Source of the DNA: Simplicispira psychrophila DSM 11588
GTDB taxonomy: Bacteria > Pseudomonadota > Gammaproteobacteria > Burkholderiales > Burkholderiaceae_C
Direction: 5' to 3'
Length of the DNA stretch: 64,000 bases
Assembly (NCBI RefSeq): GCF_000688255.1
Contig: NZ_JHYS01000005.1
Span: forward strand, 124,001-188,000
Of this stretch, positions 14,781 through 38,262 are shown piece by piece (within the stretch, counting starts at the first letter, position 1; each line of letters opens with the position of its first letter). Position numbers and translations under genes: made by a program. The notes below the pieces were generated by a model. The model was not told the origin of the DNA, did not search any database, and saw nothing but the letters and a program-made list of their open reading frames with translations.

Positions 14781-15571
14781 GAGGCGCCGATGGTACCGGT
14801 GTGCTGCACCTCAGCACGTAACAATTGGCGCGCCTGGCGATACACTGGCGAGCGCCACAGGCGCAGCAAACTATACAGATGCCAGCGCAAATGTGCCCAA
14901 CACCGATGGCTGGCGCGCTGCCCTCCATGCTCTATCTGCACTGGCGCGCGTACCAGCGTCAGCCCCGCCAAGCGCATGCGCAGGCACAGATCCACGTCCT
15001 CGCAGTACATGAAGTAAGACTCATCAAAACCGCCCAGCGCCTGCCACACTGGCTGGGGCAAGACCAAGCACGCAGCGTTGACCCAATCCACCCGCACCTC
15101 GCGCTGTCCCAAGGCACGGCGACGCCACAACGCCTTGGGCGTGGGCAATGCGCGCTCACTGTCCTGCAGTTGGCCTTGGGCATCGACCTGCACCGGATAA
15201 GCGCATCCGATACCCGGCGCTGCCGCCGCCTGCACTAGCGCAGCAAAAGGATCGCCATCGGCCAGCACCACATCCGGATTCAGGACACATACAAAAGGCT
15301 CAACTGCGCGGGCCAGCGCCCGGTTGTGGTTGGCACCAAAACCGGCCGGCCGGGCATTGTGGATGATTTGCAACACAAACGGCCACCCCTCCGGCGGCGG
15401 CACAGGCGCAGATTCCGGCAGATTCAAGGTCAGCACCACACGCTGCACAACGCTGGTGCCCGCCTGCACGCCAGCCACCAACGCATACAGCAAGGGCTGC
15501 ACCGTCGGGCCATGCCCATGGCTGACCACGGAAACAACCACAGCGCCCGAAAAGGGATCAGGAAATGTCAT
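14777..15571 (-). CDS. glycosyltransferase family 2 (rhamnosyltransferase-like)
   Basis: A 264-residue GT-A protein. It starts with a VVVSVVSHGHGP nucleotide-binding strand, has NARPAGFGANHNRALA, and carries a CVLNPDVVLADGDPF segment where the DXD-like metal site is replaced by NPD, as in many rhamnosyltransferases. A later YFMYCEDVDLCLRMRLAG segment is typical of the same class. The start at 15571 (MTFPDP) is chosen over upstream in-frame codons because the fold begins there. It is coupled to the WecA-like gene and diverges from the large fused glycosyltransferase gene; rhamnose as donor sugar is inference supported by rfbBDAC at 40-44 kb. Confidence 0.82.
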
Positions 15572-15647
15572 AAAGAGGGCTATTGTCGCCGCTGACACAA
15601 GCTCCAAGGCTTACAGCCACGGCAAAGCGCCGGTCATAATTCAAGGG

Positions 15648-18600
15648 ATGACGTATTCAATTGAGGATTTGCACGTATATCTGCGCAGCATCACACAGGA
15701 TGAGCGCACGTCGCTATCGGTACTGGCCCATCTGATTCCTGCGCGCGCGCGCGTGCTCGACCTGGGTTGCGGCAGTGGCGCCCTAGGACAGCATCTGGTC
15801 CAAAACAAGGGCTGTAGCGTTGATGGTGTCACCCTGAACGAAGCCGAAGCCGCACACGCCCACCCGTACTACAGCCGCATCGTGGTCGACAATCTCGAAA
15901 CCTGCGACCTGCTTGCCACCTTTGCCGGACAGCGCTATGACGCCATCGTCTGTGCTGACGTCCTGGAGCACCTCAGCCGCCCTGAACGCATCCTCGCCGC
16001 CTGCCGTGAATTGCTCAAACCCGATGGCCAACTACTGATATCGGTACCCAACGCCGGCTATTGCGGCCTGATTGCAGAGTTGTTGCAAGGCGAGTTTTGC
16101 TACCGCGAAGAAGGTCTGCTCGACCGCACCCACCTGCGATTTTTTACGCGCCGATCGCTCACCCGCTTTCTAGGCGAACAGCGTTGGGCTATCGACTCAC
16201 TCGACACCATCTGTCGCGAACTGCCTGAATCTGAGTTTAAAGTGGCCTTTGACAGCCTGCCCCCTGCCGCTGCCCGGCACCTGCTGGGCATTCCGGATGC
16301 GCTAACTTACCAATTCATCACTGTCGCCCGCCCTGTCTCCGACATACCTGTTTTGGCGCTGACTCCTGCCACCGCCCCGAGTGCGCCAGCGCAGGCCCGC
16401 TTCACTGTGCAGCTCTATTTGGGTTATGAAGGCACATACGCGGAGGACAGCAAACTCACCACTACTGGTGTCATTGGCCAAGAACGCCAGACCCTGTGTT
16501 TTACACTGCCGCCGCACAGCACGCCCCTTACCCGTCTGCGCCTCGACCCGGCTGACCGGGCTGGTTTTTTGCACCTCTACCGCCTCACGCTGCGCACGCC
16601 AGACAGCGCACCAACATGGCAATGGTCATCTGATATCTACCCGCGCGCCTCGCTGGCGCAGACACCGCACAACCAAATTGTCTGGCAGACGCCGCTAGCA
16701 TCTGCGTCGAGTGCAACCTTACTGCTGCTCACAGGCGACGACCCCTGGTTTGAGCTGCCGATCGCACCCGATACCCTGATGCGCAGCGTCCCCCACGGCG
16801 CCATCCTAGAGATAGAGCTAGGTTGGCCTATGTCCGCCGATTACTTAGCCTTATCCAATACCGTGCGCCCGCTACAAGAGCGCATCGAACAGATCGAAAG
16901 CAGCGCACAAACGCAATTGCAGCAAGCGCAAGAACAACTGCAACAGACACAAGGACAGCTGCGACAGCAGCTTCAGCAGGCCCAAACGCTACTGAGCGCC
17001 GTACAACATCGCAACATCGCTCTAGAAGAAAAGGCCGCCACACTCACGGTCCAACGTGCTGAGCTACAACGCAGCGCAATCCATCTTCAGCTCAACTTTG
17101 ACCAACTGGCACAGTACCTGCGCACCATCGAAGCCTCCACCGTGTTCCGCGCCGCCCGCCCCCTGGTACACACCAAAATGGCTATCGACCGCCTATTAGG
17201 TAGGGGCACACGCCACAACACAGCTACTAGTGCTGTGCCTACTCCTATATCCATGGCGCCCACACCGCATCCGGTGGACATCATCGTACCCATCTACCGC
17301 GGCTTGGCTGACACCCAGTTGTGCATCAACTCGGTGTTGTCCAGCCCCTGCACCAAGTCCTACCGCCTGATCGCTATCAACGACGCCAGCCCCGAACCCG
17401 AAGTCACTGAATGGCTGCGCGCCCGCGCCGCACAAGACAGCCGCATCACTTTGCTGGAAAACACCAACAATCTGGGTTTTGTCGGTACTGTCAACCGTGG
17501 CATGGCGCTCTCCAATAGCAATGATGTGTTGCTACTCAACAGCGACACTGAAGTCGCCAACGACTGGCTCGACCGCATCCACCGCGCCGCCTATAGCAAC
17601 AGCCGCATCGCCTCGGTCACACCGCTGTCCAACAACGCCACCATCTGCAGCTACCCGCAGTTTTGCAAAGACAACGAACTGCCTGCTGGCTACGACACCG
17701 CCCAGCTGGACGCTTTGTGCGCGCGCACCAACCCCGGCGCTGCTGTGGACGTGCCCACCGGTGTGGGCTTTTGCATGTACATCCGGCGTGACTGCCTGGC
17801 ACAGGTGGGGCTGTTTGATACCGACAACTTCGGCAAAGGCTACGGCGAAGAAAACGACTTTTGCCAACGCGCCCTCCAAGCTGGCTGGCGCAACCTGCAC
17901 CTACTGGACACCTTTGTGCTGCACACCGGCGGCGTCAGCTTTGGTGACAGCAAAAGCCCGCGCGAAAAAGCCGCCATGGAAACCCTGCGCCGCCTGCACC
18001 CGCTCTACGAGCGCGACGTCATGGCCTTTGTGCAACAAGACCCAGCCCGACCCTACCGATTGGCACTGGACTTGGCGCGTATCGCAGAGGCCCACCTGCC
18101 GGTGGTGCTGGCCGTACTGCATGACCGGGGCGGCGGCACTCTGCGCCACGTGCAAGAACTGGCACAGCATTTGGCCGCACACGCCACCGTACTGACCCTG
18201 ACACCAGCCCCCGGCCACAGCGTCAGCCTGCGCATGGCCGGTACGCACGAAGGCTTTGAAGTGGTGTTTCGCTTGGCCGACCAATATGAAGACCTGCTGC
18301 AAGCACTGCGCCACATCGGCGTACGCCACCTGCACTACCACCACCTGCTAGGCCACGGCCCCCTCATCCTCGAACTGCCGCAGCAACTGGGCCTGGCCTA
18401 CGACTTCACTGCGCACGACTTTTATAGCTACTGCACCCACATCTCCCTGACCGGTAACAACAACCGTTACGCCGACGAACCCGCCCCCGGCCAGTGCGGC
18501 TGCTGCCAGCCATACGACGCCGCACCCACGGGCAGCGGCACCGTGGCCGACTGGCGCCAACACAACCAGCGCTTTCTGACTGGCGCACGTCAAGTACTGA

Positions 18601-19490
18601 CCCCCAGCCACGACACCGCCCAGCGCATCGCCGCTTTCGCCCCTGGCGCCCGCGTGCGCATGGCGACACACACCGACATCGCTGCTTACTTGGCCGAGCA
18701 CCCGGCTCTGCACGGCGCTCTTCCTACACCCGCACCACAACCACACGGTGGCGCACTGAAAGTCGTCGTCTTGGGCGCCCTGAGCGCCATCAAAGGCGCC
18801 GACCTACTGGAAGCGGTGGCGCAAGAGGCGGCGCGGCGCGGCGCCCCGGTTGAATTCCATCTACTTGGCTATGGCTATCGCCACCTGCAAACGCAGCCCC
18901 GCGCCCAGCTCACCGTACACGGCGCCTATGAAGAAATTGACCTGCCCCGCCTGCTGCAATGGCTGCAGCCAGACTTGGTATGGTTTCCGGCGCAATGGCC
19001 TGAAACCTACAGTTACACCCTGAGCGCCTGCCTGCAAGCCGGACTGCCTGTACTCGCCCCCGACTTGGGCGCCTTCACCGAACGGCTGGCCGGACGCCCC
19101 TGGAGCTGGGTACAGCCCTGGGATTTATCAGCCAAAGAATGGCTGGACACCTTGCTCCATCTGCGCGATTCACACTTCACCACCGGGCAAGCACCCATAC
19201 CCATTCCGACGCCTATTTACATCACCAGCGCAGCCGATGCGGAAAATCCGTCTTGGAGCTACCGTACCGACTATTTGCACCAGCTGCCGCCCGCCTGCGC
19301 AGAGGCTGCCACTCCTTTGGCGCTGGCATTTCTGACCACACATCAACCCGTAGCGCCCTACGCCACCGGCGCCAAATCTTTAATGCTGACTACTGTGCTA
19401 CGCCTGCGCTCTTTGCCGCTGCTGCGCGGCGTGGCCCAGCGCATACCTCAACACTGGCAAACTCAGGTCAAAAACTGGCTCAGCGCCTGA
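15648..19490 (+). CDS. large fused methyltransferase / coiled-coil / GT2 / GT-B glycan assembly protein
   Basis: A 1280-residue multi-domain protein. Residues 1-220 are a class I SAM methyltransferase (VLDLGCGSGALG at about 34, CADVLEHLSRPERIL, RTHLRFFTRRSL). Residues 225-400 look like a beta-rich domain (LRLDPADRAGFLHLY). Residues 405-490 are a Gln-rich coiled coil. Residues 540-780 are a GT2 domain (VDIIVPIYRG, NNLGFVGTVNRGM, LLNSDTEV, GEENDFCQRALQAGW). Residues 815-1280 are a GT-B-like domain (VVVLGALSAIKGADLLEAV, then APDLGAFTERLAG). The start at 15648 is where the methyltransferase fold begins; AAGGG is closer than ideal. The combination suggests a cytoplasmic polymer-building and capping enzyme with the coiled coil as ruler or scaffold; the roles are inference. 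Confidence 0.82.
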   Translation: MTYSIEDLHVYLRSITQDERTSLSVLAHLIPARARVLDLGCGSGALGQHLVQNKGCSVDGVTLNEAEAAHAHPYYSRIVVDNLETCDLLATFAGQRYDAIVCADVLEHLSRPERILAACRELLKPDGQLLISVPNAGYCGLIAELLQGEFCYREEGLLDRTHLRFFTRRSLTRFLGEQRWAIDSLDTICRELPESEFKVAFDSLPPAAARHLLGIPDALTYQFITVARPVSDIPVLALTPATAPSAPAQARFTVQLYLGYEGTYAEDSKLTTTGVIGQERQTLCFTLPPHSTPLTRLRLDPADRAGFLHLYRLTLRTPDSAPTWQWSSDIYPRASLAQTPHNQIVWQTPLASASSATLLLLTGDDPWFELPIAPDTLMRSVPHGAILEIELGWPMSADYLALSNTVRPLQERIEQIESSAQTQLQQAQEQLQQTQGQLRQQLQQAQTLLSAVQHRNIALEEKAATLTVQRAELQRSAIHLQLNFDQLAQYLRTIEASTVFRAARPLVHTKMAIDRLLGRGTRHNTATSAVPTPISMAPTPHPVDIIVPIYRGLADTQLCINSVLSSPCTKSYRLIAINDASPEPEVTEWLRARAAQDSRITLLENTNNLGFVGTVNRGMALSNSNDVLLLNSDTEVANDWLDRIHRAAYSNSRIASVTPLSNNATICSYPQFCKDNELPAGYDTAQLDALCARTNPGAAVDVPTGVGFCMYIRRDCLAQVGLFDTDNFGKGYGEENDFCQRALQAGWRNLHLLDTFVLHTGGVSFGDSKSPREKAAMETLRRLHPLYERDVMAFVQQDPARPYRLALDLARIAEAHLPVVLAVLHDRGGGTLRHVQELAQHLAAHATVLTLTPAPGHSVSLRMAGTHEGFEVVFRLADQYEDLLQALRHIGVRHLHYHHLLGHGPLILELPQQLGLAYDFTAHDFYSYCTHISLTGNNNRYADEPAPGQCGCCQPYDAAPTGSGTVADWRQHNQRFLTGARQVLTPSHDTAQRIAAFAPGARVRMATHTDIAAYLAEHPALHGALPTPAPQPHGGALKVVVLGALSAIKGADLLEAVAQEAARRGAPVEFHLLGYGYRHLQTQPRAQLTVHGAYEEIDLPRLLQWLQPDLVWFPAQWPETYSYTLSACLQAGLPVLAPDLGAFTERLAGRPWSWVQPWDLSAKEWLDTLLHLRDSHFTTGQAPIPIPTPIYITSAADAENPSWSYRTDYLHQLPPACAEAATPLALAFLTTHQPVAPYATGAKSLMLTTVLRLRSLPLLRGVAQRIPQHWQTQVKNWLSA

Positions 19491-19610: not shown

Positions 19611-20675
19611 CTACTTTGAATTAATTCTGTGCAGCCAGCGCTGGGCAGCACGCATACAGGGCTGCTCCACGCCAAACCACGACAGCCAGGCCAGCAACAC
19701 AATCGGAACCAGAGATACCAGCAGACACACCGCGAAAGACCAGCCCCGTGCCAAGCACAGTGCAGTGACAGCCTGCTGAACGGGAAAAGCGTAGATGTAC
19801 ACGCCGTAAGACAAATCAACGCGCCCATGGCCAGCACTGGCTGCACTGGCCACACTGGAATAGCGAACGTGCGCCAGATAAAACGTGCCGCACACCATCA
19901 GCACCCACACCGCCATTTGGCGCAGCAACGCAGACTCGGCGTACAGCCCTCCCACCACCGCCAACAGCGCCACCACCGCCATCCACTGACGCGGACGAAC
20001 GGCATAAACAGCAAAAGTACTGCCAGCAAAAAATGGCACGCCAAAACCACAAAAATCGCTCCAACGGAACAACTCCGCCATAGGCCCACCAGTTGCCTCC
20101 AGCGCTGCATCCCAGGCACCCATGCGCGCCAGTTGCCATAAGCAGGCCAGCACCAAGGCCGTCGCCGGATACACCCAGCGGCGCCCGCGCATTCCCCACG
20201 ACAGCGCAGACAAAACGCCATACATGGCCAATTCATAGCGAATCGTCCACAGTGAACCATTCACCGCGCGTGCGAACGGATTGGACTCAAACACTCCCGG
20301 CAAAGTCTGCACCGTAGCCAGCCCTACCGCGTTATTGACAAAATTAAGCCAAGTACTCGATGCTTGCCAATATGCTGCAGATGGCAACGTTGTCACCGCC
20401 CAGCCCAGCACAAAGACGGAAAATGCCACCGCTACCACCAAGCCCGGAAAGACCCGCGTCAGACGCTTGACCCAAAAAACCCGCCAAGTCGGTTTCCGGA
20501 TCCAACTTTGGCACACCAAATAGCCGCTGATAAAGAAAAATACAGATACCGCCAAAGAGCCCAGGCTGTGTCCCGGAAATGGCACCGGCAAATGCAAACG
20601 GTACAGAAAATCACCATGTGCAAAAAACACAGCTAGCGCAGCAGCCAAGCGCAGCAAGTCAAAACTATTTCCCAT
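19611..20675 (-). CDS. acyltransferase family 3 (OafA/YrhL-like) membrane protein
   Basis: A 354-residue protein with about ten transmembrane segments. The N-terminal MGNSFDLLRLAAALAVFFAH with a following GDFLYRL fits the conserved His region of acyltransferase 3 proteins, and FFFISGYLV and VKRLTRVFPGL are further family features. Such enzymes O-acetylate or otherwise acylate surface glycans. The start at 20675 is chosen because the family begins with this segment; the upstream open frame to 20831 is not hydrophobic and looks non-coding. It converges with the large fused glycosyltransferase gene and probably decorates the same polysaccharide. Confidence 0.85.
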   Translation of the reverse strand: MGNSFDLLRLAAALAVFFAHGDFLYRLHLPVPFPGHSLGSLAVSVFFFISGYLVCQSWIRKPTWRVFWVKRLTRVFPGLVVAVAFSVFVLGWAVTTLPSAAYWQASSTWLNFVNNAVGLATVQTLPGVFESNPFARAVNGSLWTIRYELAMYGVLSALSWGMRGRRWVYPATALVLACLWQLARMGAWDAALEATGGPMAELFRWSDFCGFGVPFFAGSTFAVYAVRPRQWMAVVALLAVVGGLYAESALLRQMAVWVLMVCGTFYLAHVRYSSVASAASAGHGRVDLSYGVYIYAFPVQQAVTALCLARGWSFAVCLLVSLVPIVLLAWLSWFGVEQPCMRAAQRWLHRINSK

Positions 20676-20884
20676 GTTTGATGAAATTCTTATCGAAATG
20701 CTCGCACGCAGACTGAAACAATGCCGGCAGCGGCAGCCACCAACCCCCACGCCGTAGGAAGTGTGCAAAAACCACAAATTGCACCCCATACGTCCGCACA
20801 CCTTCAGCAAACTAAGCTCTCTCCACAGCAATTCGATTAAACTTTACCGACCCGCCCCGGAGCACTGGCTTTCGCCGTGTGACT

Positions 20885-20922
20885 GCCCTTGTCAGGGCTT
20901 TCAACATAGAATGTTGTTTTTT
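20885..20922 (+). terminator. tandem hairpins with T-run (terminator or attenuator-like)
   Basis: The first hairpin is GCCCT-TGTC-AGGGC (20885-20898). The second is CAACAT-AGA-ATGTTG (20902-20916), followed by six T's. On the plus strand this looks like a rho-independent terminator, yet no plus-strand gene ends just before it. It may shield the downstream gene from read-through. Confidence 0.45.
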
Positions 20923-20955
20923 CGAAACAGCGTCTTTGTTGGGAGAGAACGGGCC

Positions 20956-20983
20956 TTGTTGCCTCTAGGGGCTGTGCTAACAT
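20956..20983 (+). promoter_or_regulatory. candidate sigma-70 promoter of the exported protein gene
   Basis: TTGTTG and TAACAT are separated by 16 bases, giving a leader of roughly 50 bases before the ATG at 21041. The match is moderate and unverified. Confidence 0.35.
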
Positions 20984-21040
20984 TCAAAAGCGTAATCAAT
21001 CTTGGTAGTTGCGCTTTCAACTTTTTACTGGAGTTCATAA

Positions 21041-22558
21041 ATGCGAAAAAATCTTCTCGCCCTGAGCATTGCTGCCATGGTTGGTGGCCTGTCTGGCGCG
21101 GCTAACGCAGCTGTTTTTGTCAACACCGTTGGCGCTGCTGCCAACGGCTTGCCAGCAATCAGCGCTGCTGCACCTTTGGCAACCCAGCTGACGTCAACGA
21201 CGACTGGCATCGGTCACATCCTGGTGGTGCCTTACTTCAGCACGCAACAAAACAATAACACCCTGTTGAACCTGGTCAACACCGATACCGTCAACGGTAA
21301 GGCGGTCAAACTGCGCTTCCGTGGCGCAGCCAACTCTGACGACGTGTTTGACATCTCGATTTTCCTCTCGCCTGGCGACATGTGGACAGCAAACGTCTCT
21401 GCCGATGGCGATCTCTCGCGTCTCGCGACCAGCGACACCAGCTGCACATTGCCTAGCGCACAAGACATCAAAGACTTGGGCGGCAAGTTCAAGACCAACC
21501 GCGTGCGCAATGCTGACCCACTGCAAACACGCGAAGGCTATGTTGAAATCCTGAACATGGCTGACGTTCCTCCTGGAACAGGTACTGCTGGTGCCAACAG
21601 CGCCCTGTACACTGCCATCAAGCACGTCAACGGCGTGGCTCCTTGCACGCAAGCCTTGATGGATCTGCAAGAGAACGATCTGGTTGCTATTGATGGCGAC
21701 GTCAATTCGCCTGTACGTCGCGGTTACTCGTGGCCCACCGGCGGCCTGATGGCCAACTGGGTGATCGTGAACGTCGGTGACAGCGCTTCGTTCTCCGGCG
21801 AAGCAGTGGCATTGCGCGCAACGCCTAGCGGTACGATTGACACCAGTGGTTCGGGCAACCTGGTGTGGTTCCCACAGACCACTGCAACTCCTACAATGGC
21901 TGCAAACCTCCTGACAGCAGATCCATTGTTGTCAAGCGGTGCTGTGATTGCAGCCAGCTACGACTTCCCCGATCTGTCGACGCCTTACGTCAGCGGAGCA
22001 TTGGGCGCTTCTCCAGCCGCACAAGCGAGTGAGCTTGCTAGCACCTTGGCAGTCCGCTCAGTCACCAACGAATACCTGACCAACAAGTCGGTGAACTTCG
22101 CTACCGACTGGGTGTTCTCCATGCCTACGCGCCGTTACGCTGCGGCCTACAACTACGGCGCTACCGGTTCAGCTCAGCGCGTGCTGAATCCTCTGGTTTC
22201 CGCTCACTTTAACAGCGACAACGTCACCCTGGATGCAGCCAAGGGCCAGCTGTGCATTAGCACAGGCACCATGCGCGCCTTTGACCGTGAAGAAAACACC
22301 CGCACTACGTTCGTGATCTCGCCTGCCTCGGCAGTGAGCTTCTGCGGCGAAACCAGCGTGTTGAGCTTCAACAGCGCAGCGTACTCGGTGCTGGGCGCCA
22401 AGATCGCTCAGCAAAACATCGAAACGAAGTTTGCTGACGGCTGGTTCTCTATCAACACCCCTGGCGTTGGTAACGGTCTGCCTGTGATCGGCTTCGCAGC
22501 TGCCAAGACCCGTGGTACCAACCTGGGTGGCACCTGGAAGCACCGCTACAGCCGTTAA
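21041..22558 (+). CDS. exported 505-residue protein, candidate surface-array (S-layer-like) protein
   Basis: A clear signal peptide (MRKNLLALSIAAMVGGLSGA, cleavage after ANA near residue 23) precedes a mature protein of about 480 residues. It is rich in Ala, Thr, Ser, Asn and Val, with no transmembrane segments after the signal. There are four cysteines (in TSCTLP, APCTQA, QLCIST and SFCGET) that could make two disulphides. I do not recognise an enzymatic domain. It is monocistronic, with its own candidate promoter, a TGGAG ribosome site and a strong terminator, and its codon choice is noticeably more uniform than its neighbours, which suggests high expression. The setting among O-polysaccharide export and type II secretion genes makes a surface-layer protein, for example of the NpdA kind in Delftia, a hypothesis to test. 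Confidence 0.6.
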   Translation: MRKNLLALSIAAMVGGLSGAANAAVFVNTVGAAANGLPAISAAAPLATQLTSTTTGIGHILVVPYFSTQQNNNTLLNLVNTDTVNGKAVKLRFRGAANSDDVFDISIFLSPGDMWTANVSADGDLSRLATSDTSCTLPSAQDIKDLGGKFKTNRVRNADPLQTREGYVEILNMADVPPGTGTAGANSALYTAIKHVNGVAPCTQALMDLQENDLVAIDGDVNSPVRRGYSWPTGGLMANWVIVNVGDSASFSGEAVALRATPSGTIDTSGSGNLVWFPQTTATPTMAANLLTADPLLSSGAVIAASYDFPDLSTPYVSGALGASPAAQASELASTLAVRSVTNEYLTNKSVNFATDWVFSMPTRRYAAAYNYGATGSAQRVLNPLVSAHFNSDNVTLDAAKGQLCISTGTMRAFDREENTRTTFVISPASAVSFCGETSVLSFNSAAYSVLGAKIAQQNIETKFADGWFSINTPGVGNGLPVIGFAAAKTRGTNLGGTWKHRYSR

Positions 22559-22583: not shown

Positions 22584-22613
22584 AAAAGGCGGGGAACCTT
22601 CCCCGCCTTTTTT
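22584..22613 (+). terminator. strong rho-independent terminator
   Basis: The 13-bp stem AAAAGGCGGGGAA / TTCCCCGCCTTTT with a 2-base CC gap is followed by further T's. It lies 25 bases after the stop of the exported protein gene. Confidence 0.9.
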
Positions 22614-22761: not shown

Positions 22762-23733
22762 ATGATGCTTTCGCTTTGTTCCCCTCTTGTTTCCCGCTCT
22801 CTGTCCTCGCTGCACCGCAACGCCCTGGTGTGTGCCGCCCTGCCTGTGCTGCTGACCCTGGGATCTGTCAACAGCTACGCGGCAGACACGCCGTTGATGC
22901 AAGGGGCCCATGTGGCCATCACCAGCGACGACGTGGTGAAAAACATCGAGAACATGCCCACGCAAGTGCGCCAGGACATCCTTTCTGACCCCGCAAAGCT
23001 GCGCCAGCTGGTCGGCAACCTGTATCTGCGCCGCGCCTTGGCCACACAAGCCGAGCACGATGGCCTGACAAAAAACCGCGAAGTACAGTTCAAGCTCGAT
23101 ACCGCACGCGAAAGCGTACTGGCAGAAGCCCAGGTGGAGCGTATTGCCAACGCCGCCACACCCAACGCCGCTGCCGTGGACAAACTGGTGCAAAGCATCT
23201 ACAAGGCAGAGCCAGAGCGCTTCAGCACCCCCACACAAACCCAGGCGCGCCACATTCTGATCAAAGGCACGGACGCCAGCTCCCGCGCGCAGGCAGAAAA
23301 ATTGCTAGCCGAACTGAAAACTGGAGCCAATTTTGAAGACTTGGCACGTCAATATTCTGCCGATCCTGGCAGTGCCGCCAAAGGCGGAGATTTGGGGTTC
23401 TTTCCCAAGGGCCGTATGGTTCAACCCTTCGAAAAAGCCCTTGATGCCCTGGTAAATCCAGGCGATCTGAGTCCTGTCGTGGAAAGCAGTTTTGGCTTCC
23501 ATATCATCCGTCTGGAAGCCCGCAAGTCCGCCACTCTCCAGCCATTTGAAGAAGTGCAAGCACAATTGCACGCTGAAATTGTGGCCAAAATTCAGCAAGA
23601 TGCACGCCTGAAAGAAGTCAAGCGTCTGCAAGACCAAGCCACGGGGGATCACGATGCACTAGAGGCCTTCATGGCAGCACAAAAGCAAGCCACGTCCTCT
23701 ACAACCCCTGCTCCCACCGCTGCTGTCAAGTAA
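22762..23733 (+). CDS. parvulin-type peptidyl-prolyl cis-trans isomerase (periplasmic)
   Basis: A 323-residue protein with an N-terminal signal sequence (hydrophobic stretch LVCAALPVLLTLGSVNSYA, cleavage near residue 41). The parvulin domain lies at about 159-255: ARHILIKG at its start, ANFEDLARQYSADPGSA, GGDLGFFPKGRMVQPFE and SSFGFHIIRLE at its end. Upstream is a helical region as in SurA and PpiD relatives; the C terminus is Ala/Thr/Pro-rich. It would help fold exported proteins in the periplasm. It sits between the exported surface protein and the Wzm gene, so the surface protein is an attractive client, though that is inference. Confidence 0.88.
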   Translation: MMLSLCSPLVSRSLSSLHRNALVCAALPVLLTLGSVNSYAADTPLMQGAHVAITSDDVVKNIENMPTQVRQDILSDPAKLRQLVGNLYLRRALATQAEHDGLTKNREVQFKLDTARESVLAEAQVERIANAATPNAAAVDKLVQSIYKAEPERFSTPTQTQARHILIKGTDASSRAQAEKLLAELKTGANFEDLARQYSADPGSAAKGGDLGFFPKGRMVQPFEKALDALVNPGDLSPVVESSFGFHIIRLEARKSATLQPFEEVQAQLHAEIVAKIQQDARLKEVKRLQDQATGDHDALEAFMAAQKQATSSTTPAPTAAVK

Positions 23734-23784: not shown

Positions 23785-24585
23785 ATGAGCACACTCGTCA
23801 GTGAAGCCGCGGCCTTGTGGCACGCTCGCAGTTTATGCTGGGTACTGACCCAACGCGAGGTTGCAGCCCGCTATGCCGGCACCGCCTTGGGCATTGCCTG
23901 GGCCTATGTGCAGCCCTTACTAACAATTGCGGCCTACTACTTGGTGTTTGATGTGGTGTTTGCCATGCGCTTGGGCGATGGCGCACCCACGCGGGCTGTG
24001 GGCGCTTATCTGATCGTTGGAATGCTTCCGTGGATGGCGTTTTGCGATGCGGTCACGCGTGGCATGGGCAGTCTGGTGGAGGCGGGCGGTGTACTGCAAA
24101 AAAATGCCTTACCACCCATGCTATTTCCAGTGCGCGCAGTGCTGGCCAGCGGCGTGGTGTTTGCGCCACTATTGCTGCTATTAGTTTTCGCCTACATACC
24201 GCAACACCATTTTTCTCTGGCGTTGCTGTCTTTGCCGCTGCTGCTGCTGCTGCAGTGGTTACTCTGTACTGTGTGGGGCGCTGCCTTGGCAGTTTTAGCC
24301 GCTGCGCTGCGCGACACCATTCAGGTGGTGGGCTTTTCCTTGTCGATTGGCATTTTTCTCTCACCGGTGCTGTTTCCCGTCCACCTATTTCCTGCCGACT
24401 GGCGCTGGGTGCTGTGGCTCAACCCGATGACGGCTTGGGTCAGTGGTTATCAGGCGGTATTGTTGCAAGGCGCCTGGCCAACTTGGTCAGTATGGCTAGG
24501 TTGTGTGGTTTGGCTAGCACTGGGTGCTGGTTTACTAGAACTGGTGCTGCAGCGCAGCCGCGATCAGCTGGTGGATTGGCTTTAA
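23785..24585 (+). CDS. wzm: polysaccharide ABC exporter, permease (Wzm-like)
   Basis: A 266-residue protein with six predicted membrane segments, matching the ABC-2 permease family of O-antigen and capsule exporters. The cytoplasmic N-terminal segment LTQREVAARYAGTALGIAWA is typical, as is the MRLGDGAPTRAVGAYLIVG region. It forms the channel moving the lipid-linked polysaccharide across the inner membrane. The ATPase partner follows after 91 bases that contain a copy of the dispersed repeat, so the intergenic gap was probably widened by it. Confidence 0.9.
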   Translation: MSTLVSEAAALWHARSLCWVLTQREVAARYAGTALGIAWAYVQPLLTIAAYYLVFDVVFAMRLGDGAPTRAVGAYLIVGMLPWMAFCDAVTRGMGSLVEAGGVLQKNALPPMLFPVRAVLASGVVFAPLLLLLVFAYIPQHHFSLALLSLPLLLLLQWLLCTVWGAALAVLAAALRDTIQVVGFSLSIGIFLSPVLFPVHLFPADWRWVLWLNPMTAWVSGYQAVLLQGAWPTWSVWLGCVVWLALGAGLLELVLQRSRDQLVDWL

Positions 24586-24676: not shown

Positions 24677-25948
24677 GTGCCAGATATACCTTCTCCTGAC
24701 CTGATGGCGGCGCAGCCTGTGACCTTGCAGGTACAACACTTGGGCAAGGAATACCGCTTGTACGATTCGCCACGCCAGCGGCTCAAAGCGTTGCTCACCG
24801 GTCGCCACCTGCACCACAGCCACTGGGCTTTGCAAGATGTGTCTTTCACACTGTACCGAGGCCAGTGCCTAGGGGTGATTGGCGACAACGGTGCAGGCAA
24901 AAGTTCGCTCCTTAAGCTGCTGGCCGCTACGTTGCAGCCCAGCACTGGATCCATCACGCGGGCAGGCCGTTTGACGGCTATTTTGGAGCTGGGTGCAGGT
25001 TTTCACCCCGACTTCACGGGGCGGCAAAACCTGTATTTTGGCGGTAGTCTGATTGGTATTTCAGCCTCTGAAATGACCCGACTCGAGCCGGAGATCATTG
25101 AATTTTGCGAGCTCGGCGCGGCCATGGACAGGCCGGTAAAAACCTATTCTTCCGGCATGACGGTGCGACTGGCATTTGCCTTGATCACCGCTGTGGAGCC
25201 GCAGTTGCTCATCATTGATGAGGCGCTGGCAGTGGGAGATCAGCACTTTCAGAAAAAATGCGTGGAGCGTATTGAGCAATTTCGCAACAATGGCTGCACC
25301 ATTTTGTTTTGTTCACACAGTCTCTACCACGTGCAACAGTTATGCGATACGTCACTGTGGCTCAAGGGCGGCAAGATGCAGGCTTATGGCCCCACACCCG
25401 AGGTGTTGGCTGGCTACGAAGCCCATGTGCGTGCACAAGAAGCATCGGCCCCTAGCGGCTCAATATCAATTGCGCCCACGGCACACATAGTGTCCACAAT
25501 ATTAACGGATGCTGCAGTTGATTTATCCACTGCACCTACGCTGGCACGATTCGAATCAGTAGATCTACCTGATCTGCTCCCCCCGGTGGGCCACTCACCA
25601 CCCCGGTTGGGATCACCGCATTTGCGTGTGATGCTGCGCGCGCACTTGCCACAGGGCCAACAGCCACACTTTGGCGTCATGCTAGAGCAGGCGCATGGTG
25701 TTGGCATCACTTCAGCAGGCACTCATACCGATGGTGTCACACCAGTGCAAGACGCCAGCGGTATCTGGTGTGCCACACTGACATTCACCGATTTGCCATT
25801 ACACACGGGGGAGTACAGCCTAAGCGTATTTTTATTCGACTCACAGGGGCTGGTAGTGTATGAGGAGCGCAAAAATTGCGCATATTTTCAACACATTTTT
25901 ATCCATTCCACGCCGGGATTAGTGCGTCTGCCGCACGTTTGGAGTTGA
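24677..25948 (+). CDS. wzt: polysaccharide ABC exporter, ATPase with C-terminal glycan-binding domain (Wzt-like)
   Basis: A 423-residue ATPase. Walker A is GDNGAGKSSLLKLLA, the signature loop is the degenerate YSSGMTVRLAFAL typical of this subfamily, Walker B is QLLIIDEALAVGD, and the switch His is in FCSHS. Residues about 260-423 form an added beta-rich domain as in Wzt proteins that recognise the terminal modification of their O-polysaccharide, here ending in FQHIFIHSTPGLVRLPHVW. The start is a GTG at 24677; an ATG at 24704 would also leave a complete ATPase. Such a domain implies a capped polymer, which fits the methyltransferase module of the fused protein at 15.6 kb. Confidence 0.9.
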   Translation: MPDIPSPDLMAAQPVTLQVQHLGKEYRLYDSPRQRLKALLTGRHLHHSHWALQDVSFTLYRGQCLGVIGDNGAGKSSLLKLLAATLQPSTGSITRAGRLTAILELGAGFHPDFTGRQNLYFGGSLIGISASEMTRLEPEIIEFCELGAAMDRPVKTYSSGMTVRLAFALITAVEPQLLIIDEALAVGDQHFQKKCVERIEQFRNNGCTILFCSHSLYHVQQLCDTSLWLKGGKMQAYGPTPEVLAGYEAHVRAQEASAPSGSISIAPTAHIVSTILTDAAVDLSTAPTLARFESVDLPDLLPPVGHSPPRLGSPHLRVMLRAHLPQGQQPHFGVMLEQAHGVGITSAGTHTDGVTPVQDASGIWCATLTFTDLPLHTGEYSLSVFLFDSQGLVVYEERKNCAYFQHIFIHSTPGLVRLPHVWS

Positions 25949-25953
25949 TCTAC

Positions 25954-26862
25954 ATGAGGCAATGGCTGCCCCCGCGTCTACGCCGCGAGGGACGTGATCT
26001 GATTGAGCTGGTGCTGGTACCAGGGCTGGCAGCGGTAATGCCCTGGCGTTGGTGTTTTGCTATTTTCAAGCGTTTGGCGCAAGTGCAGTGGTTGTATAGT
26101 GCTGCCTGCTCGCAGGCGCTGGCGCAAGCGCAAGAACACGGCCAAGTGACTCCGGCAGATGCCGTCCGCTGGTTGGCAACGCGTCGATTGGTGACGCTGG
26201 TAGACCATGCCGACCATTACTTGGCCGTAACGCGCTCAGACGTCTGGATGCAGCGCCATCTTCAGGTGCAGGGGCACTGGCCCAAAATCGATTCAGCAGG
26301 TATTTTTTGCACTTTTCATTGGGGAGCTGGCATGTGGGGCTTGCGCCATGCCCACAGCGTAGGACTACAAGGCCATGCGTTGGTGGCGGCTATGGAGGGC
26401 AATCCTTTCGCCGGTCGCCGAGTGCTGCACTGGTATGTGCGTGCCCGCACCCGCAGCGTGGGGCGTGCACTAGGGCGCGCACCGCTAGTGGTATCAGGCA
26501 GTCTGCGCCCGGTGATTCAAGCACTACGCCGCAATGAGCAGGTGCTAGCAGCAGTAGATGTTCCTTCAGACCAAGTTGATTCAAGTGTCGAAGTGCGTCT
26601 ACTGGGAATGCCTGTACGCATGCCTAAGGGTTTGCTGCGCCTAGCAGTTACACATGGAATACCAGTCGCGGTGTATGTGACAGGGTTGGATATACACACT
26701 GGTCAGCGTTATCTGCGCATTACCCCGTTGGGCGTGTGGCAAGACTTAGATGCTTTGGCTGCAGCTGTCTTTAGCCATTTAGAAGCCGCACTGCGACAAG
26801 ATGCCGCCGCTTGGCATTTTTGGGCTGAGGCACCGCGTTTTTTCAGCGCCCCACCACCTTAA
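25954..26862 (+). CDS. LpxL/HtrB-like lipid acyltransferase, possibly atypical
   Basis: A 302-residue protein resembling late acyltransferases of lipid A. The fold landmarks are FCTFHWGAGMWG, where the catalytic His would be, and later AAVDVPSDQVDSSVEVRLLG, PVRMPKGLLRLAVTHGIPV. In LpxL the His is normally followed four residues later by an acidic residue (HX4D/E), but here it reads H-W-G-A-G-M, so the acid is missing or displaced. The start at 25954 has GGAG upstream and lies 6 bases after the wzt stop, so it is the last gene of the exporter operon. It might acylate a glycolipid carrier or lipid A; the activity is uncertain. Confidence 0.72.
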   Translation: MRQWLPPRLRREGRDLIELVLVPGLAAVMPWRWCFAIFKRLAQVQWLYSAACSQALAQAQEHGQVTPADAVRWLATRRLVTLVDHADHYLAVTRSDVWMQRHLQVQGHWPKIDSAGIFCTFHWGAGMWGLRHAHSVGLQGHALVAAMEGNPFAGRRVLHWYVRARTRSVGRALGRAPLVVSGSLRPVIQALRRNEQVLAAVDVPSDQVDSSVEVRLLGMPVRMPKGLLRLAVTHGIPVAVYVTGLDIHTGQRYLRITPLGVWQDLDALAAAVFSHLEAALRQDAAAWHFWAEAPRFFSAPPP

Positions 26863-27358: not shown

Positions 27359-29683
27359 TTATTGAGGGGGAAGCGGTTGTAGCAGCGCAGGTGCCATGGG
27401 AAGAGCTACATCTTTGACATCAAAGCGTGGCAAGCCTTTCATTCGGTCGCGCAACTCTTCACTCACGCTGCGAATATCAATATCAGAGCGCACCACACGG
27501 GGAGTGATAACGACCAATAGTTCGGTGCGTCCGCCATTGCTGGTATTGGTGCCAAATAGATTACCCACCACCGGCATGTCCTGCAAATACGGGATACCAG
27601 ACTTGCCGGTGGTTTTGCCATCCTTGATCAGCCCCCCCAACACGATGGTCTCGCCCGATCGGACAGCCACTTTACTGCTGATCTGACGTTGCAAAAAGGA
27701 GGGCTGCCCACCTGCAGTCTCTTGGGGCGGGCCGACGTCGGTGACGGTTTGATCCACTTGCATGGTGACAATGTTACCGGCATTGACCGAGGGCGTAACT
27801 ACAAGGTGCACCCCGGTATCCTTGTATTGAATAGTGCTGGTGCTGGCATCCAGGTTGTTGGAAAAATTGGTGATACTGGTCTGGATAGGTTGCTGGTTGC
27901 CCACGTTGATGGTGGCGGTGTGGTTGTCCAGCACCATCAGGGAGGGACTGGAGATCACATTGATCAAGGACTTGGTGGCCAACGCACTGAGGACTGCGCG
28001 CACCTTCCCCAAGGGGTTGCTCAAGGTGTAGGTAAAGCCTTGGGTGATAGCGCTTCCCAGAATGCCGCCTGATACTTTGTCACCGCTGATCTGTCCTTGG
28101 CCGGTATAACCGGTGTTGGCACGACTGTCACTGAAGGCCCATTGCAGACCATACTTCAAGTCGTCATTCAGGGTAACTTCCACAATGGTGGCTTCGATCA
28201 ACACTTGCGTCAGTGGCAAATCGAGCCGTTTGAGGGTAGATTCAATTTTGGAATATTCGGCTTTGGTGCTCCAAATGAGCACGGAGTTGTTGAGCGCGTC
28301 TGCCATAACACGCACGCCCCCCAAGTTAGCCACCACCGGAGCTTGTGTGCCTCCCGCCTGCGGATTGGTATTGGCGCCAGCCGTTTGTCCACCAGCTCGC
28401 ATTCCCAGCCCCCCAGTGCTGGCGCCAAATGGGTTGTTACTGCCAAAACCGCTAGTGTTACCAAATGGGCTGCCCGTGCCGCTTTGCCCGAAGGACGCAC
28501 CTGTGGCGCTGTTCAGACCCGGCGCAACACCACTGCTGGCGCTGGTTACGCCAGTCGTTGGGCCACCAAAAATACCGCTGAGCACACTGGCCAAGTGCTG
28601 GGCATTGACGTTTTGCACCTGATAGATGAACAGTTGCGCTTCACCGGCGTTATCGCTGGGGCGATCCAGGCGCTCGATCCAGCGACGCGCCTCATCCAGA
28701 TAGGAAGCGCGCGGCGTAACCACCAGCACGCTGTTGATACGCTCAATGGGCATGATGCGCAGAGCGCCAAACAACGGGTTGCCCTCACCCAATACTACTG
28801 GCGCTGCTGTGCCGCCAACCGGCGCGCGAGCAACCCCTGCGGCTACAGGCGCAGAGGCGCTATTACCACCTGTGCTCATGAGTTGCAAGGCATTTTCAAC
28901 TTCTTTGACGGATGCGTACTTCAGCGGAAATACACCGACCGACATGCCTTTGAGCAGATCCACGTCAAAAGTATCGATCAAATCCTGCCAACCTTCGGCC
29001 TGGGTGCGGGTCCCGGTCAGCACAAGCAGGTTGCGCACGGTATCTACACGCACCAAACCATCGGGGGGCAGCAAGGGGCGCAAGATGGACGCCATCTCTG
29101 CCGCGCCAATGTATTGCAACGGCACCACGATCACACCTGAGCCCGGCTGTAAAGGCGCTTTGCCTACTTGGCGCACGACAGAACCGATACCTTTCAAAGC
29201 ATCAGGGCGGCCGACGTGGTAATTACCTCGGGCATCGCGCACCAATGCCAAGCCGTTGGCATAGAGGGCGCTTTCGAGCAAAAACACGGCCTGATCGGGC
29301 GACACAGGTGCCCGCGTGACCAAGGTAACAGTGCCTGCCAGCGGCGGATGCAAAACGTAACTGGTCTTGAGAATATCTCCCAAAATGGTACGCACCACTT
29401 CAGCAATGGGGGCTTCTTCAAAATTCAACGTGACTGGTGCACCATCGAGACCAAGCGCGAATTTGGCGGGAGCAATAACTTGGTCGTTACCACGAATGAT
29501 GCGCGGCTCGTTGACACTGGCATCAGGCGTTGGCCCCATTACAGCAGCGCTGTTGAGCACAGCCGCGTCAACGCCGACTGAGGAAGCAACGGGAGGCGCA
29601 GACCCATGATCGAGGCTCTGGGCTGTAGCAATTTGGCATATCGCCAAGGCAAATGCAGTGAGCGCGTAAGAATGAATTTTCAT
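27359..29683 (-). CDS. gspD: type II secretion outer-membrane secretin GspD
   Basis: A 774-residue secretin. An N-terminal signal peptide (ending near ICQIATA) is followed by the N0 domain and several N domains, then the pore-forming secretin domain (QVLIEATIVEVTLNDD, SSPSLMVLDNHTATINVG, ELLVVITPRVV). Residues about 385-455 are an insertion rich in Gly, Asn, Ser and Thr inside the third repeated N domain, which is common in betaproteobacterial GspD. Unlike the usual order, gspD is near the end of this operon and not at its start. Confidence 0.95.
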   Translation of the reverse strand: MKIHSYALTAFALAICQIATAQSLDHGSAPPVASSVGVDAAVLNSAAVMGPTPDASVNEPRIIRGNDQVIAPAKFALGLDGAPVTLNFEEAPIAEVVRTILGDILKTSYVLHPPLAGTVTLVTRAPVSPDQAVFLLESALYANGLALVRDARGNYHVGRPDALKGIGSVVRQVGKAPLQPGSGVIVVPLQYIGAAEMASILRPLLPPDGLVRVDTVRNLLVLTGTRTQAEGWQDLIDTFDVDLLKGMSVGVFPLKYASVKEVENALQLMSTGGNSASAPVAAGVARAPVGGTAAPVVLGEGNPLFGALRIMPIERINSVLVVTPRASYLDEARRWIERLDRPSDNAGEAQLFIYQVQNVNAQHLASVLSGIFGGPTTGVTSASSGVAPGLNSATGASFGQSGTGSPFGNTSGFGSNNPFGASTGGLGMRAGGQTAGANTNPQAGGTQAPVVANLGGVRVMADALNNSVLIWSTKAEYSKIESTLKRLDLPLTQVLIEATIVEVTLNDDLKYGLQWAFSDSRANTGYTGQGQISGDKVSGGILGSAITQGFTYTLSNPLGKVRAVLSALATKSLINVISSPSLMVLDNHTATINVGNQQPIQTSITNFSNNLDASTSTIQYKDTGVHLVVTPSVNAGNIVTMQVDQTVTDVGPPQETAGGQPSFLQRQISSKVAVRSGETIVLGGLIKDGKTTGKSGIPYLQDMPVVGNLFGTNTSNGGRTELLVVITPRVVRSDIDIRSVSEELRDRMKGLPRFDVKDVALPMAPALLQPLPPQ

Positions 29684-29722
29684 GGCGACGAATAAAGAGG
29701 CAATGGGGAACCAGACACGTAC

Positions 29723-30373
29723 TTATGGTCCAAAGCGCGGTCGGCGAGGTGGCTTTGGCGCAGCAAGCGCAGCGTCCGGGGCTGTAAGTACGGCAGCCTG
29801 TGCAGGTGGTGCAGACGCCGGTGATGCAACCTTTGCAGACGGTGCAGGCGGTGCAGGCATAGTCAGGGCTGCACCAGAAAAAGTAGCCACAGCAGCGCGC
29901 GTTAGTTGCAGCACCCGGGTTTGTCCACCGCCGGCAAAGGTCACGCTGCGCCCTTGAATACTTTGCAGCGTCCAGCCATCCAGGGATTCGTTCAAGCGTA
30001 GACGTCGGGCTTTGCCAGCCACAGTAATGATGATGCTGGCGGTATGCTCGCCAGTGACCACACCAGAGAGCTGAGCCGTGCTCAAGGTATCCACAGGCGC
30101 TTCAACCACGGCACTGGGGGGCGGTGGAGGCGGTGGGGGGCGACGTGTGGGCTGAAACAGTGGACGTTCCAATAAAGCAAGAAAGCGATTGGTATCGACC
30201 GGCTTGCGTTCAGGTAATGCCGGCAGCATTTGCAAATAGTCGTTTTTAATCGCTGCCGGCGCTATCCAGTGCACGTTGCGCAGGCTACCGTTCGAGTTGA
30301 ACCACAAAGCAGCCAACACCGCAATCAGTGCCACATTGATCAACGCCAGAGCGGTCAATACATGGCGCTTCAT
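29723..30373 (-). CDS. GspC/GspN-like inner-membrane type II secretion protein
   Basis: A 216-residue protein with one N-terminal transmembrane segment (about 5-25), a Pro-rich linker with eight consecutive prolines near residue 87, and a small domain (LSGVVTGEHTASIIITVAG, then DGWTLQSIQG) that looks like the homology region of GspC. The C-terminal third is Ala/Pro-rich and low complexity. It is shorter than classical GspC and has no visible PDZ domain. It lies between gspM and gspD, overlapping gspM by 4 bases, so a linker between the platform and the secretin is likely. Confidence 0.72.
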   Translation of the reverse strand: MKRHVLTALALINVALIAVLAALWFNSNGSLRNVHWIAPAAIKNDYLQMLPALPERKPVDTNRFLALLERPLFQPTRRPPPPPPPPSAVVEAPVDTLSTAQLSGVVTGEHTASIIITVAGKARRLRLNESLDGWTLQSIQGRSVTFAGGGQTRVLQLTRAAVATFSGAALTMPAPPAPSAKVASPASAPPAQAAVLTAPDAALAAPKPPRRPRFGP

Positions 30374-30921
30374 GAGTGTCTCCGCAACACTACCAGACTC
30401 AGTTGTACTGATAAACGCTGAACACCGCCTTTGGTGGGTGCGCCGTAGCCTTGCACCAGAACAGTATCGATAAGGATCGCTGGCGCTTCTGCAACCAGTC
30501 CTGCCAGTGCCGCTTGTAAAGCGACCATTTCACCTTCCGCGCGCACCGACAAAGGGATGCGATCAAAGCCTTTGTCTTCTTTGACAGGCAGCACTTGGCT
30601 GCTAGCAATATCCAGGCCTGCCGCCACCAAAATGCTGCGTATACGCTGCTGCGCGTCATTACCTGTCTGATTGATATCCTGCCCTTGCGGGTACACATAT
30701 TGGGCTAGAGAAGCCTGTCCCTGGGCATTGGCTTGAACCAGGGTCTCACGACTGTCTTCTAATCCCAATAGACGGGCATAGCGTGGCTCCAATTCATCGA
30801 GACGCTTTTCCGCCCATTGATGCTTTTGGTAGATATAAATGCCTGCAGCCATAAAAGGCAAGGCAAGCAGCGCCAACATGATGACTACGATGGCACTTTC
30901 ACGGCGAACGATGGATTTCAT
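30370..30921 (-). CDS. gspM: type II secretion protein GspM (PilO-like)
   Basis: A 183-residue bitopic protein with a transmembrane segment at about 12-32 followed by a short coiled region (RLDELEPRYARLLGLED) and a ferredoxin-like domain (IPLSVRAEGEMVALQAALA and ILIDTVLVQG). This is the usual layout of GspM and PilO proteins, which form the inner-membrane platform with GspL. Its start overlaps the stop of gspL (ATGA), and its end overlaps the start of the GspC/N-like gene. Confidence 0.82.
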   Translation of the reverse strand: MKSIVRRESAIVVIMLALLALPFMAAGIYIYQKHQWAEKRLDELEPRYARLLGLEDSRETLVQANAQGQASLAQYVYPQGQDINQTGNDAQQRIRSILVAAGLDIASSQVLPVKEDKGFDRIPLSVRAEGEMVALQAALAGLVAEAPAILIDTVLVQGYGAPTKGGVQRLSVQLSLVVLRRHS

Positions 30922-32183
30922 GGTACTGCCTTGCGCCCGGCCAGCGGAGCGCTAAGCACAGGAGGGGGGGGTGTACTCTCGGGTCCTGAAGAAAAACGGC
31001 TCTTTTTTCGGGGTGGCGCGGCGCTGGCTGCATTGGCTGCAGGAGGCGCTGGCATGGTAGCTATAGATGTTGCGGCACCAACCGAAGCAGCAGCATTGGG
31101 TGCAAGCTGCTTCACAGACGGGATAGTCGTATCCACGGGTGCAGACGCAGTAATGGAAAACACGGCAGGGTCCAATTGAAATTCAATAATGAAATTTTCA
31201 GCTGTGGCACCAGGATTACGGGTTGCCGCTGAAGGCGCACGAACGTCTTTAAAGCCATTTTTGGTCCCCAGCAGTTGCATAAGCGTGGCAGCGTTCGAAG
31301 TCAGACCATTGATCGTGACTTTCAAACCCTGGATCTGCAGACTTTGCAATGAAGTGTCGTCTGGCAGCACCTGGGTGATAGCTTCAAGCAGCGGCAGAAA
31401 ATCGACGCGCTCGGCCAAGAGACTGCGAAGGTTTTCCATTTCTCCAGTGGTGCGTACAAAAGCTTCGCGTTGGCCTAACAGGGGGGCAGTGCGCACCTGC
31501 ACAGCATCGTAGGCATGAACCGCCTCTATGGCACGCAATCGCAATTGCATGGTTGGCGTAATAGCCATGGCGCCCGCAACACATAACGCGCTACCTAGCA
31601 TTCCGTAAGCCATGTGGCGACGTCTGGCGCCAGACTGTGCTCGCCGCGCCTCACCCCAACCGGCCAGGAGAATGGGAGTGCCATTGGGCGTGAAGGACCA
31701 CACTTCTGGATCTGCCGCGGTGGCCAGACGATGCTGCTGGGTGCTGATGTATTGCACAGCTTGTTTGCGCGAGATCAGAACAGCATCTATTTGCAGCCCA
31801 CCCGCTTCCACCAACTGCGCACTGTAGCCCCACACCATATCGGCAGCAGCAAACGGACTGACACTGCGCAGATCAAGCTCTACTGCCTGGGCTATTTGTG
31901 TCTGCGACATGGCGGGCACGTGCAAGGTGCGGCGCAAAAGTATGTCTTCGGGCAGCTCGATGGCCTCAAAACGCTCGGTACTACTCCCTTCTCCCTTGGC
32001 CCGTTGCCCACCCAGCCAAGTAGTTTCACGCCCATCGGCGTGCAAGACGCGCACAGGAAAGTCTGGCGTCAGCCAAGCTAACGCCGGAGTCCGATGCAGT
32101 CCCTGCCAAGAGCGGCGTATTTCTGGCCAAAGCGTACCGAGGTCTAACCCGAAGAAGCGTGAAGGAGATGCAGCTGTGGACAT
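30918..32183 (-). CDS. gspL: type II secretion protein GspL (with PilN-like region)
   Basis: A 421-residue protein. The N-terminal 190 residues resemble the actin-like cytoplasmic domain of GspL/PilM (FFGLDLGTLW, then QIAQAVELDLRSVSPF). A transmembrane segment lies at about 193-213 (AYGMLGSALCVAGAMAIT), followed by a coiled coil and a PilN-like periplasmic domain (SLQSLQIQGLKVTINGLTSN). The last 70 residues are Ala/Pro-rich and contain a run of eight C in the coding strand that encodes prolines. It connects the GspE ATPase to the periplasmic platform. Confidence 0.83.
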   Translation of the reverse strand: MSTAASPSRFFGLDLGTLWPEIRRSWQGLHRTPALAWLTPDFPVRVLHADGRETTWLGGQRAKGEGSSTERFEAIELPEDILLRRTLHVPAMSQTQIAQAVELDLRSVSPFAAADMVWGYSAQLVEAGGLQIDAVLISRKQAVQYISTQQHRLATAADPEVWSFTPNGTPILLAGWGEARRAQSGARRRHMAYGMLGSALCVAGAMAITPTMQLRLRAIEAVHAYDAVQVRTAPLLGQREAFVRTTGEMENLRSLLAERVDFLPLLEAITQVLPDDTSLQSLQIQGLKVTINGLTSNAATLMQLLGTKNGFKDVRAPSAATRNPGATAENFIIEFQLDPAVFSITASAPVDTTIPSVKQLAPNAAASVGAATSIATMPAPPAANAASAAPPRKKSRFSSGPESTPPPPVLSAPLAGRKAVP

Positions 32184-32192
32184 GTTGTATGG

Positions 32193-34601: not shown

Positions 34602-34627
34602 GGTGCATGTGCCAAAGGGAGCTGCGT

Positions 34628-35083: not shown

Positions 35084-35111
35084 GGGAGACGGTTCCTTGG
35101 GCAAACAAAAA

Positions 35112-38103: not shown

Positions 38104-38200
38104 GGAGGGGGGGAGGAGGCGGGCGGCGGCGAAAAATGGAAAGCAGTGTAGCCGGGGGCCAATTGTCACTACTGCCCTTTGACTGATACATCGCTTTTTT

Positions 38201-38262
38201 ACTATCATTTTAATAGCTTAAGACGCTTATAATACGCCGGCTCAAGCCCTATTTGATGCAAA
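38201..38262 (+). repeat. dispersed ATAGCT-type repeat, copy 6
   Basis: It reads ATTTTAATAGCTTAAGACGC, then CGGCTCAAGCCCTATTTGAT. It lies in the divergent promoter region between gspE and the glycoside-hydrolase-like gene and could influence either. Confidence 0.65.

Follow-up and report, generated by a model that had tools for sequence, protein, structure and literature searches.

What kind of protein is encoded by the gene at positions 21041–22558 (+ strand) of the DNA analyzed here, a 64,000-nucleotide stretch of the Simplicispira psychrophila genome that we refer to as the window? A sequence-only reading had proposed a surface-array protein related to NpdA, which is the layer protein in Delftia and Paracidovorax citrulli according to the available parts of two studies (PMC10765051 and PMC3110197). 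This proposal is supported by end-to-end homology, by the finding of no second copy in the genome, and by a type II secretion neighborhood, array formation being what we infer. Our best explanation, to which we give a probability of roughly 0.86, is that this gene is npdA and encodes the structural protein of an NpdA-type surface layer, with the whole scheme for expression, export, and anchoring that is set out below. The earlier observation stood in part: the open reading frame (ORF), terminator, signal peptide, and setting held, whereas the leader length did not, and codon choice turned out to be biased without being extreme.

The window protein and its kinship to NpdA

The gene is a complete ORF with an ATG start and encodes 505 residues. 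Its N terminus (MRKN, a hydrophobic stretch, and then ANA before the predicted cut, with A after it) was recognized as a signal peptide by eye and by alignment with other family members, with signal peptide codons at 21041–21109 and a mature protein starting at residue 24. With the signal peptide cut by eye in this way, the mature protein has 482 residues, a mass of 50.3 kDa, and a pI of 5.4, which agrees with the signal peptide and about 480 mature residues described previously. We found no enzyme domain in Pfam, NCBIfam, or PDB sequence searches, as had also been claimed: there were no Pfam families, no matches among PDB sequences, and a single NCBIfam match far under its cut-off (13 against 546 bits). 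No membrane anchor was noticed. The strong terminator that had been pointed out is there as well, an intrinsic terminator at about 22584–22613 (+) with a stability of −21.3 kcal/mol and a z of −5.74, which none of 200 shuffles equaled. Codon choice, described as uniform, is biased: with 11 ribosomal genes of the same genome as the reference (their own values being 0.65–0.78), the CAI of npdA is 0.653, above its direct neighbors (0.39–0.58) and 10th among the 46 window genes. This rank rules out extreme codon bias, and the bias that is seen fits good expression, being compatible with it and no proof of abundance.

Relatives were collected in a first search of 60 genomes including the window's own, which gave family matches in 12, and in a scan of named genomes, which confirmed 107 relatives. 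The best 80 of these 107 were retained and correspond to 79 distinct loci, among them those of P. citrulli (L029), Delftia acidovorans (L058), Delftia tsuruhatensis (L050), Simplicispira metamorpha (L018), and Simplicispira hankyongi (L062). The comparison with NpdA that had been suggested gave an end-to-end match: residues 1–505 of the window protein align to residues 1–529 of L029, from P. citrulli DSM 17060, with 43% identity, 57% positives, and an E of 9e-119, and identity to D. acidovorans L058 is 40% (E 2e-101). We take L029 to be NpdA because, less 25 residues, it has a mass of 52,399 Da, close to the 52,394 Da given in the available text of PMC10765051 for mature NpdA of P. citrulli AAC00-1, which has a 25-residue signal peptide (the strain differs, DSM 17060 for L029 and AAC00-1 in that paper). 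With L029 being NpdA, the window protein is therefore an NpdA homolog. These alignments allow the window protein to be assigned to the NpdA family with high confidence. L029 and L058, too, have no Pfam match.

The window protein shares with NpdA of P. citrulli and D. acidovorans its end-to-end homology, its signal peptide, four cysteines, and a gene beside gsp, ppiC, wzm, and wzt. It differs from them in its local identity of only about 40–43%, in forming part of a clade of its own, and in having gsp downstream on the opposite strand. In a tree built by a quick method from 76 rows (P0001 and 75 loci, with L034, L037, L083, and L095 left out), the window protein groups with L017–L020 (SH-aLRT 100), and this clade sits on a long branch (0.49), separate from the proven NpdA proteins. 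NpdA homologs are tabulated for S. metamorpha, S. hankyongi, and S. psychrophila in the part of PMC10765051 available to us (Table 2). These homologs are not all alike, since S. hankyongi L062 falls in a different NpdA clade and has gsp upstream, whereas gsp is inverted at the window gene.

No second npdA copy was found in the window's own genome, either with the protein as query (E up to 10) or with a 67-row alignment (E up to 0.001). Strong matches, defined by a family E under 1e-100, occur in 52 of 397 family genomes, and more than one near-full-length copy is present in at least 13 of the 397 (scoring covered three candidates per genome, so the true number may be higher). One Comamonadaceae genome contributes four retained copies (L040, L043, L055, and L087), with no gspD, ppiC, or leader nearby; G084, which looks identical to that genome, has a further copy with a leader at a contig edge. 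An uncultured Acidovorax assembly has two divergent members, L023 and L089, the latter on a very long branch and without a leader. Shorter distant relatives of 404–428 residues (L009, L010, L011, and L012) are present in genomes of the same genus or family that have no strong npdA match, and the two that were scanned, L009 and L010, have no Pfam match.

We modeled the structure with AlphaFold from an alignment of 67 sequences, made up of P0001 and 66 of the 79 distinct loci. Four loci were left out as fragments or for broken or misread starts (L034, L037, L083, and L095), and another nine mostly as near duplicates (L044, L049, L056, L061, L076, L078, L084, L085, and L088). The model is mainly beta with few helices and is confident (mean pLDDT 90.3 and pTM 0.91). 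A Foldseek search against the PDB returned nothing at E 0.001, with a top row at E 0.0096 and probability 0.05, and the best plausible partial match was a weak one to a galectin-like sandwich (E 0.02 and probability 0.84); the viral BFVD database also gave nothing at E 0.001. Across the 67 sequences, Cys135 and Cys202 never vary, and conservation of Cys405 and Cys435 is at least 90%, so two disulfides are likely in the window protein.

Secretion and glycan genes around npdA

Upstream of npdA lie an acyltransferase gene and a fusion of methyltransferase and glycosyltransferase domains (15408–19490, +; named from domain matches and with a putative start), whose product likely acts in O-polysaccharide synthesis. 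Downstream come, in this order, a PpiC-type peptidyl-prolyl isomerase (22762–23733, +; PF13616, E 1e-30) with a signal-peptide-like N terminus by eye, a Wzm-type ABC-2 polysaccharide export permease (23785–24585, +; PF01061), a Wzt-type ATPase with a Wzt_C domain (24677–25948, +; PF00005 and PF14524), a lipid A acyltransferase-like (LpxL-like) protein with a putative start (25876–26862, +; a weak PF03279 match under the cut-off), and an inverted type II secretion cluster (27359–38208, −). In this cluster, gspD, C, L, K, J, F, and E were named from Pfam/NCBIfam matches and gene order, leaving aside small genes at about 33.7–35.1 kb of the window. GspD (TIGR02517) and GspE (TIGR02533) are both over the cut-off and GspF was identified by PF00482, while the candidate gspC, J, K, and L were named from weak or sub-cut-off matches plus gene order. 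The glycan export and type II secretion setting of the sequence-only reading is thus borne out by identified wzm/wzt and gsp genes.

How general is this arrangement? We compared the window proteins by tblastn with the 79 loci, to which all counts in this paragraph refer (the best 80 of 107 relatives). In 70 of 79 loci, the family gene is followed within 1.5 kb by a ppiC homolog in the same orientation, and wzm and wzt are both within 5 kb in 65. Homologs of the methyltransferase–glycosyltransferase fusion and of the LpxL-like protein are found in 51 and 29 loci, respectively. The gspD gene is beside the family gene in 67 loci, upstream on the same strand in 64 and downstream on the opposite strand in three; it was not seen in 12 loci, several of them on contigs that are cut short. 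The three inverted cases all fall within the window gene's clade (SH-aLRT 100), being three of L017–L020, and the contig of the fourth member, L018, ends too early to show gsp. Seven loci have neither ppiC nor the leader described below (L040, L043, L055, L083, L087, L089, and L092), four of which are copies within one genome. The available text of PMC10765051 describes the linkage of npdA to gsp and remarks that gsp is downstream on the opposite strand in two Simplicispira, with which the order in the window agrees. A type II system also adjoins the layer gene for VapA of Aeromonas and Slr4 of Pseudoalteromonas, as the same portion of that paper reports; the window npdA is alike in this gene order.

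Several further features of this genome touch on secretion and the cell surface. GspE (36361–38208, −) has an MshEN-type domain with a c-di-GMP-binding motif (NF053729, 56.3 against a cut-off of 38 bits), and export of surface proteins may therefore respond to c-di-GMP. Between gspE and rml genes, 38264–40234 (+) encodes a 656-residue protein with no Pfam/NCBIfam match at E 0.001. Two more GspF/PilC-type genes are found elsewhere (G000:C1 at about 281 kb and G000:C6 at about 37 kb), so besides the window cluster the genome may have a second type II system, or these genes may simply reflect type IV pili. A 2,732-residue open frame with RTX repeats (L112 and L113, G000:C17 at about 7786–7995) may encode a large surface protein.

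A conserved predicted promoter and a probable leader hairpin

The sequence before the start codon is strikingly alike throughout the family. A simple −35/−10 scan of the + strand gave no sigma-70 promoter with a recognizable −35 upstream of npdA. Comparison of upstream regions reveals a predicted extended −10 element, TGCTAACAT, at 20975–20983 (+), with no clear −35. Its pattern, TGnTAnn(A/T)T, is present at a distance of 55–85 nt from the start codon in 63 of the 78 regions compared, against 2.0 ± 1.5 in shuffles (maximum 9), although these 63 are not independent cases because the regions are related. The promoter that had been claimed is thus predicted by the comparison and missed by the simple scan, whereas the long leader that had been described is wrong, since the predicted transcription start at about 20989–20991 leaves about 50 nt. 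The leader (20987–21040, +), which is matched by models R2 and R1 introduced below, has predicted hairpin arms at about 20989–20995 and 21009–21015 and a GGAG ribosome site at 21030–21033. In 46 of the 63, 6 nt lie between the −10 and the GCG/GCA of the first arm, which puts the expected mRNA start at the stem or a few nucleotides from it.

A near-palindrome at so fixed a place after the −10 would also suit an operator in the DNA that covers the start site, or sequence conservation that is read by other means, and we therefore weighed these against an RNA hairpin. A stem AGCGTAA/TTGCGCT is present in many family leaders. For 54 distinct leaders, folding of the first 38 nt gave a mean z of −1.9, with 44 below −1 and just 20 below −2; the window hairpin alone (20990–21018) has a z of −2.3, with 2 of 200 shuffles equally stable, and the entire window leader (20989–21043) only −1.0, with 33 of 200. 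In an alignment of 43 of the 54 leaders (the window and 42 loci), RNAalifold predicted no pairs; pairing at the named stem reaches 83.7% of cells (no more than 50% after sliding it), a value equaled in 16 of 500 shuffles, and the covariation score was reached by 18 of 500. In 15 of these leaders, 93.3% of cells pair, and no shuffle of 500 was as high. The modest folding values, the weak covariation, and the fact that conservation is mostly of sequence all speak for the operator. Two observations speak against it. Where the pattern is readable (34 of 54 leaders), GCGTAA and TTGCGC are separated by anything from 8 to 20 nt, a variation that a DNA-binding dimer could scarcely accommodate, and in the 15 leaders the outer pair is A-U in nine and G-C in five. 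An operator or other non-RNA element is therefore unlikely, if still a serious competitor, and we favor a conserved RNA hairpin whose sequence appears to be constrained as well, with modest evidence for pairing. An Rfam search of 20600–21300 gave no matches up to E 5.

Since a conserved element is most telling if it is rare elsewhere, we scored two models of the leader. R1 was trained on the window leader and 42 of the 79 loci, so training leaders recur in its test sets. It scores the window leader at 56 bits and finds a leader directly before the gene in 68 of the 79 loci (best 80 of 107 relatives), with E below 0.01 for 63 and of 0.085–0.44 for the other five, all from Zoogloea; there is one stray match (E 0.81) in 1.5 Mb. 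R2 is a hold-out model from 15 leaders, all from clades other than the window gene's. In the window's own genome its sole significant site is 20987–21039 (E 6e-8, the next being at 3.8; 150 of 591 first-look candidates scored), and on sources unused in training it found 34 of 38, each directly before the gene, and nothing else up to E 1 in 857 kb. Among 37 held-out loci it misses the Delftia-like L038, L050, L058, and L065. The leader is accordingly the same in P. citrulli and diverged in Delftia (R1 E 4e-5, missed by R2).

We also ran R1 on 397 family genomes including the window's own, with E up to 0.01, 14 candidates per genome scored, and strict filters. There were at least 51 matches, 50 of which are directly before an npdA gene: 49 precede a listed npdA by comparison of coordinates, and the one in G084 is followed by an npdA whose start is interrupted by the end of the contig. 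The odd one, in G340 (E 0.009), precedes a solute-binding-like protein. The leader is present in 50 of the 52 genomes with a strong family match, being absent from G123 and G326, and 12 of the at least 13 multicopy genomes have one copy with a detected leader, which in G084 is the copy at the contig end. This coverage is not independent because many of the genomes may share species with the training loci, and what counts more is how few matches there are elsewhere.

Stem-loops of the ompA type at the 5′ end stabilize mRNA. The npdA leader resembles them in that its hairpin, too, would sit at the predicted 5′ end, or very close to it, of an mRNA for an envelope protein. We tentatively suggest, at somewhat less than even odds, that the npdA leader represents a novel family of cis-acting RNAs, with a hairpin starting within the first few nucleotides, a matching promoter, and a long-lived mRNA through which one gene could supply enough protein to tile the whole cell, and that this leader marks the copy that forms the lattice and is missing from the extra copies in the same genomes.

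A proposed scheme for the layer and its meaning

In the scheme that we propose, npdA would be transcribed from the extended −10 promoter to give an mRNA with a short leader, and the hairpin at its 5′ end would probably slow decay or tune translation. The preprotein would exit by Sec, losing its 23-residue signal peptide, and fold in the periplasm around the two likely disulfides, aided by the neighboring PpiC-type isomerase. NpdA would then pass the outer membrane via the adjacent type II system and assemble on LPS, whose O-polysaccharide may be exported by the adjacent Wzm/Wzt pair. The direct support from this analysis consists of homology, the single copy found, gene order, the conserved promoter and leader, and the confident mainly-beta model. 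We infer that the protein forms an array in this organism, how it is exported and anchored, what PpiC does, and how the leader acts; for the lattice, route, and anchor we rely on relatives and gene order. Reconstitution of the Delftia layer protein needs LPS, and an SDS-resistant oligomer is seen in relatives, according to the available portions of PMC10765051 and PMC3110197. Three points count against this best explanation: Paracidovorax valerianellae has an npdA homolog and yet no clear beaded layer, as the available text of PMC10765051 reports, the window gene's clade is on its long branch apart from the proven proteins, and the evidence for pairing in the leader is weak.

Might the window protein instead be an abundant secreted or surface member of the NpdA superfamily that forms no lattice here, such as an adhesin or a vesicle-coat protein? 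The distance of its clade from the tested proteins would allow this, as would the extra copies without a leader in other genomes, which suggest that the superfamily may be wider than the lattice formers. The window copy, on the other hand, has the leader, with no second copy found in its genome, and gsp and ppiC adjoin it as in P. citrulli and Delftia, which makes a nonlattice protein improbable. A periplasmic structural protein, which the signal peptide seen by eye and the lack of a noticed membrane anchor would suit, is far less probable still, since homologs are at the cell surface by immunogold labeling and by layer extraction (PMC3110197 and PMC10765051, respectively, in the parts available).

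We are thus left with an NpdA-type layer as the preferred reading, for which the conserved promoter–leader element and the association with ppiC and wzm/wzt appear to be new, neither having been found in the NpdA literature searched. The words promoter, leader, untranslated, hairpin, isomerase, and LPS are absent from the main text of PMC10765051, and promoter, leader, untranslated, and isomerase from PMC3110197; PMC4572682 lacks promoter, and its two isomerase passages deal with other pathways. Literature searches on Comamonadaceae surface layers with type II secretion found nothing, and those on surface-layer mRNA stability gave papers off topic by title.

Taken together, these findings assign the locus to a family of surface-layer proteins that is already known but has received little study, provide a confident model whose fold has no significant Foldseek match among solved structures, and add parts that can be tested: a candidate folding helper, a candidate exporter of the LPS anchor, and a conserved expression signal. 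By cryo-EM, S. psychrophila has two layers, the inner one being NpdA-like in look, and Simplicispira species can have two layers whose proteins are still unidentified, as stated in the available part of PMC10765051. The window gene is the candidate for the NpdA-like one, and the conserved expression signal may pick out the lattice-forming copy among paralogs.
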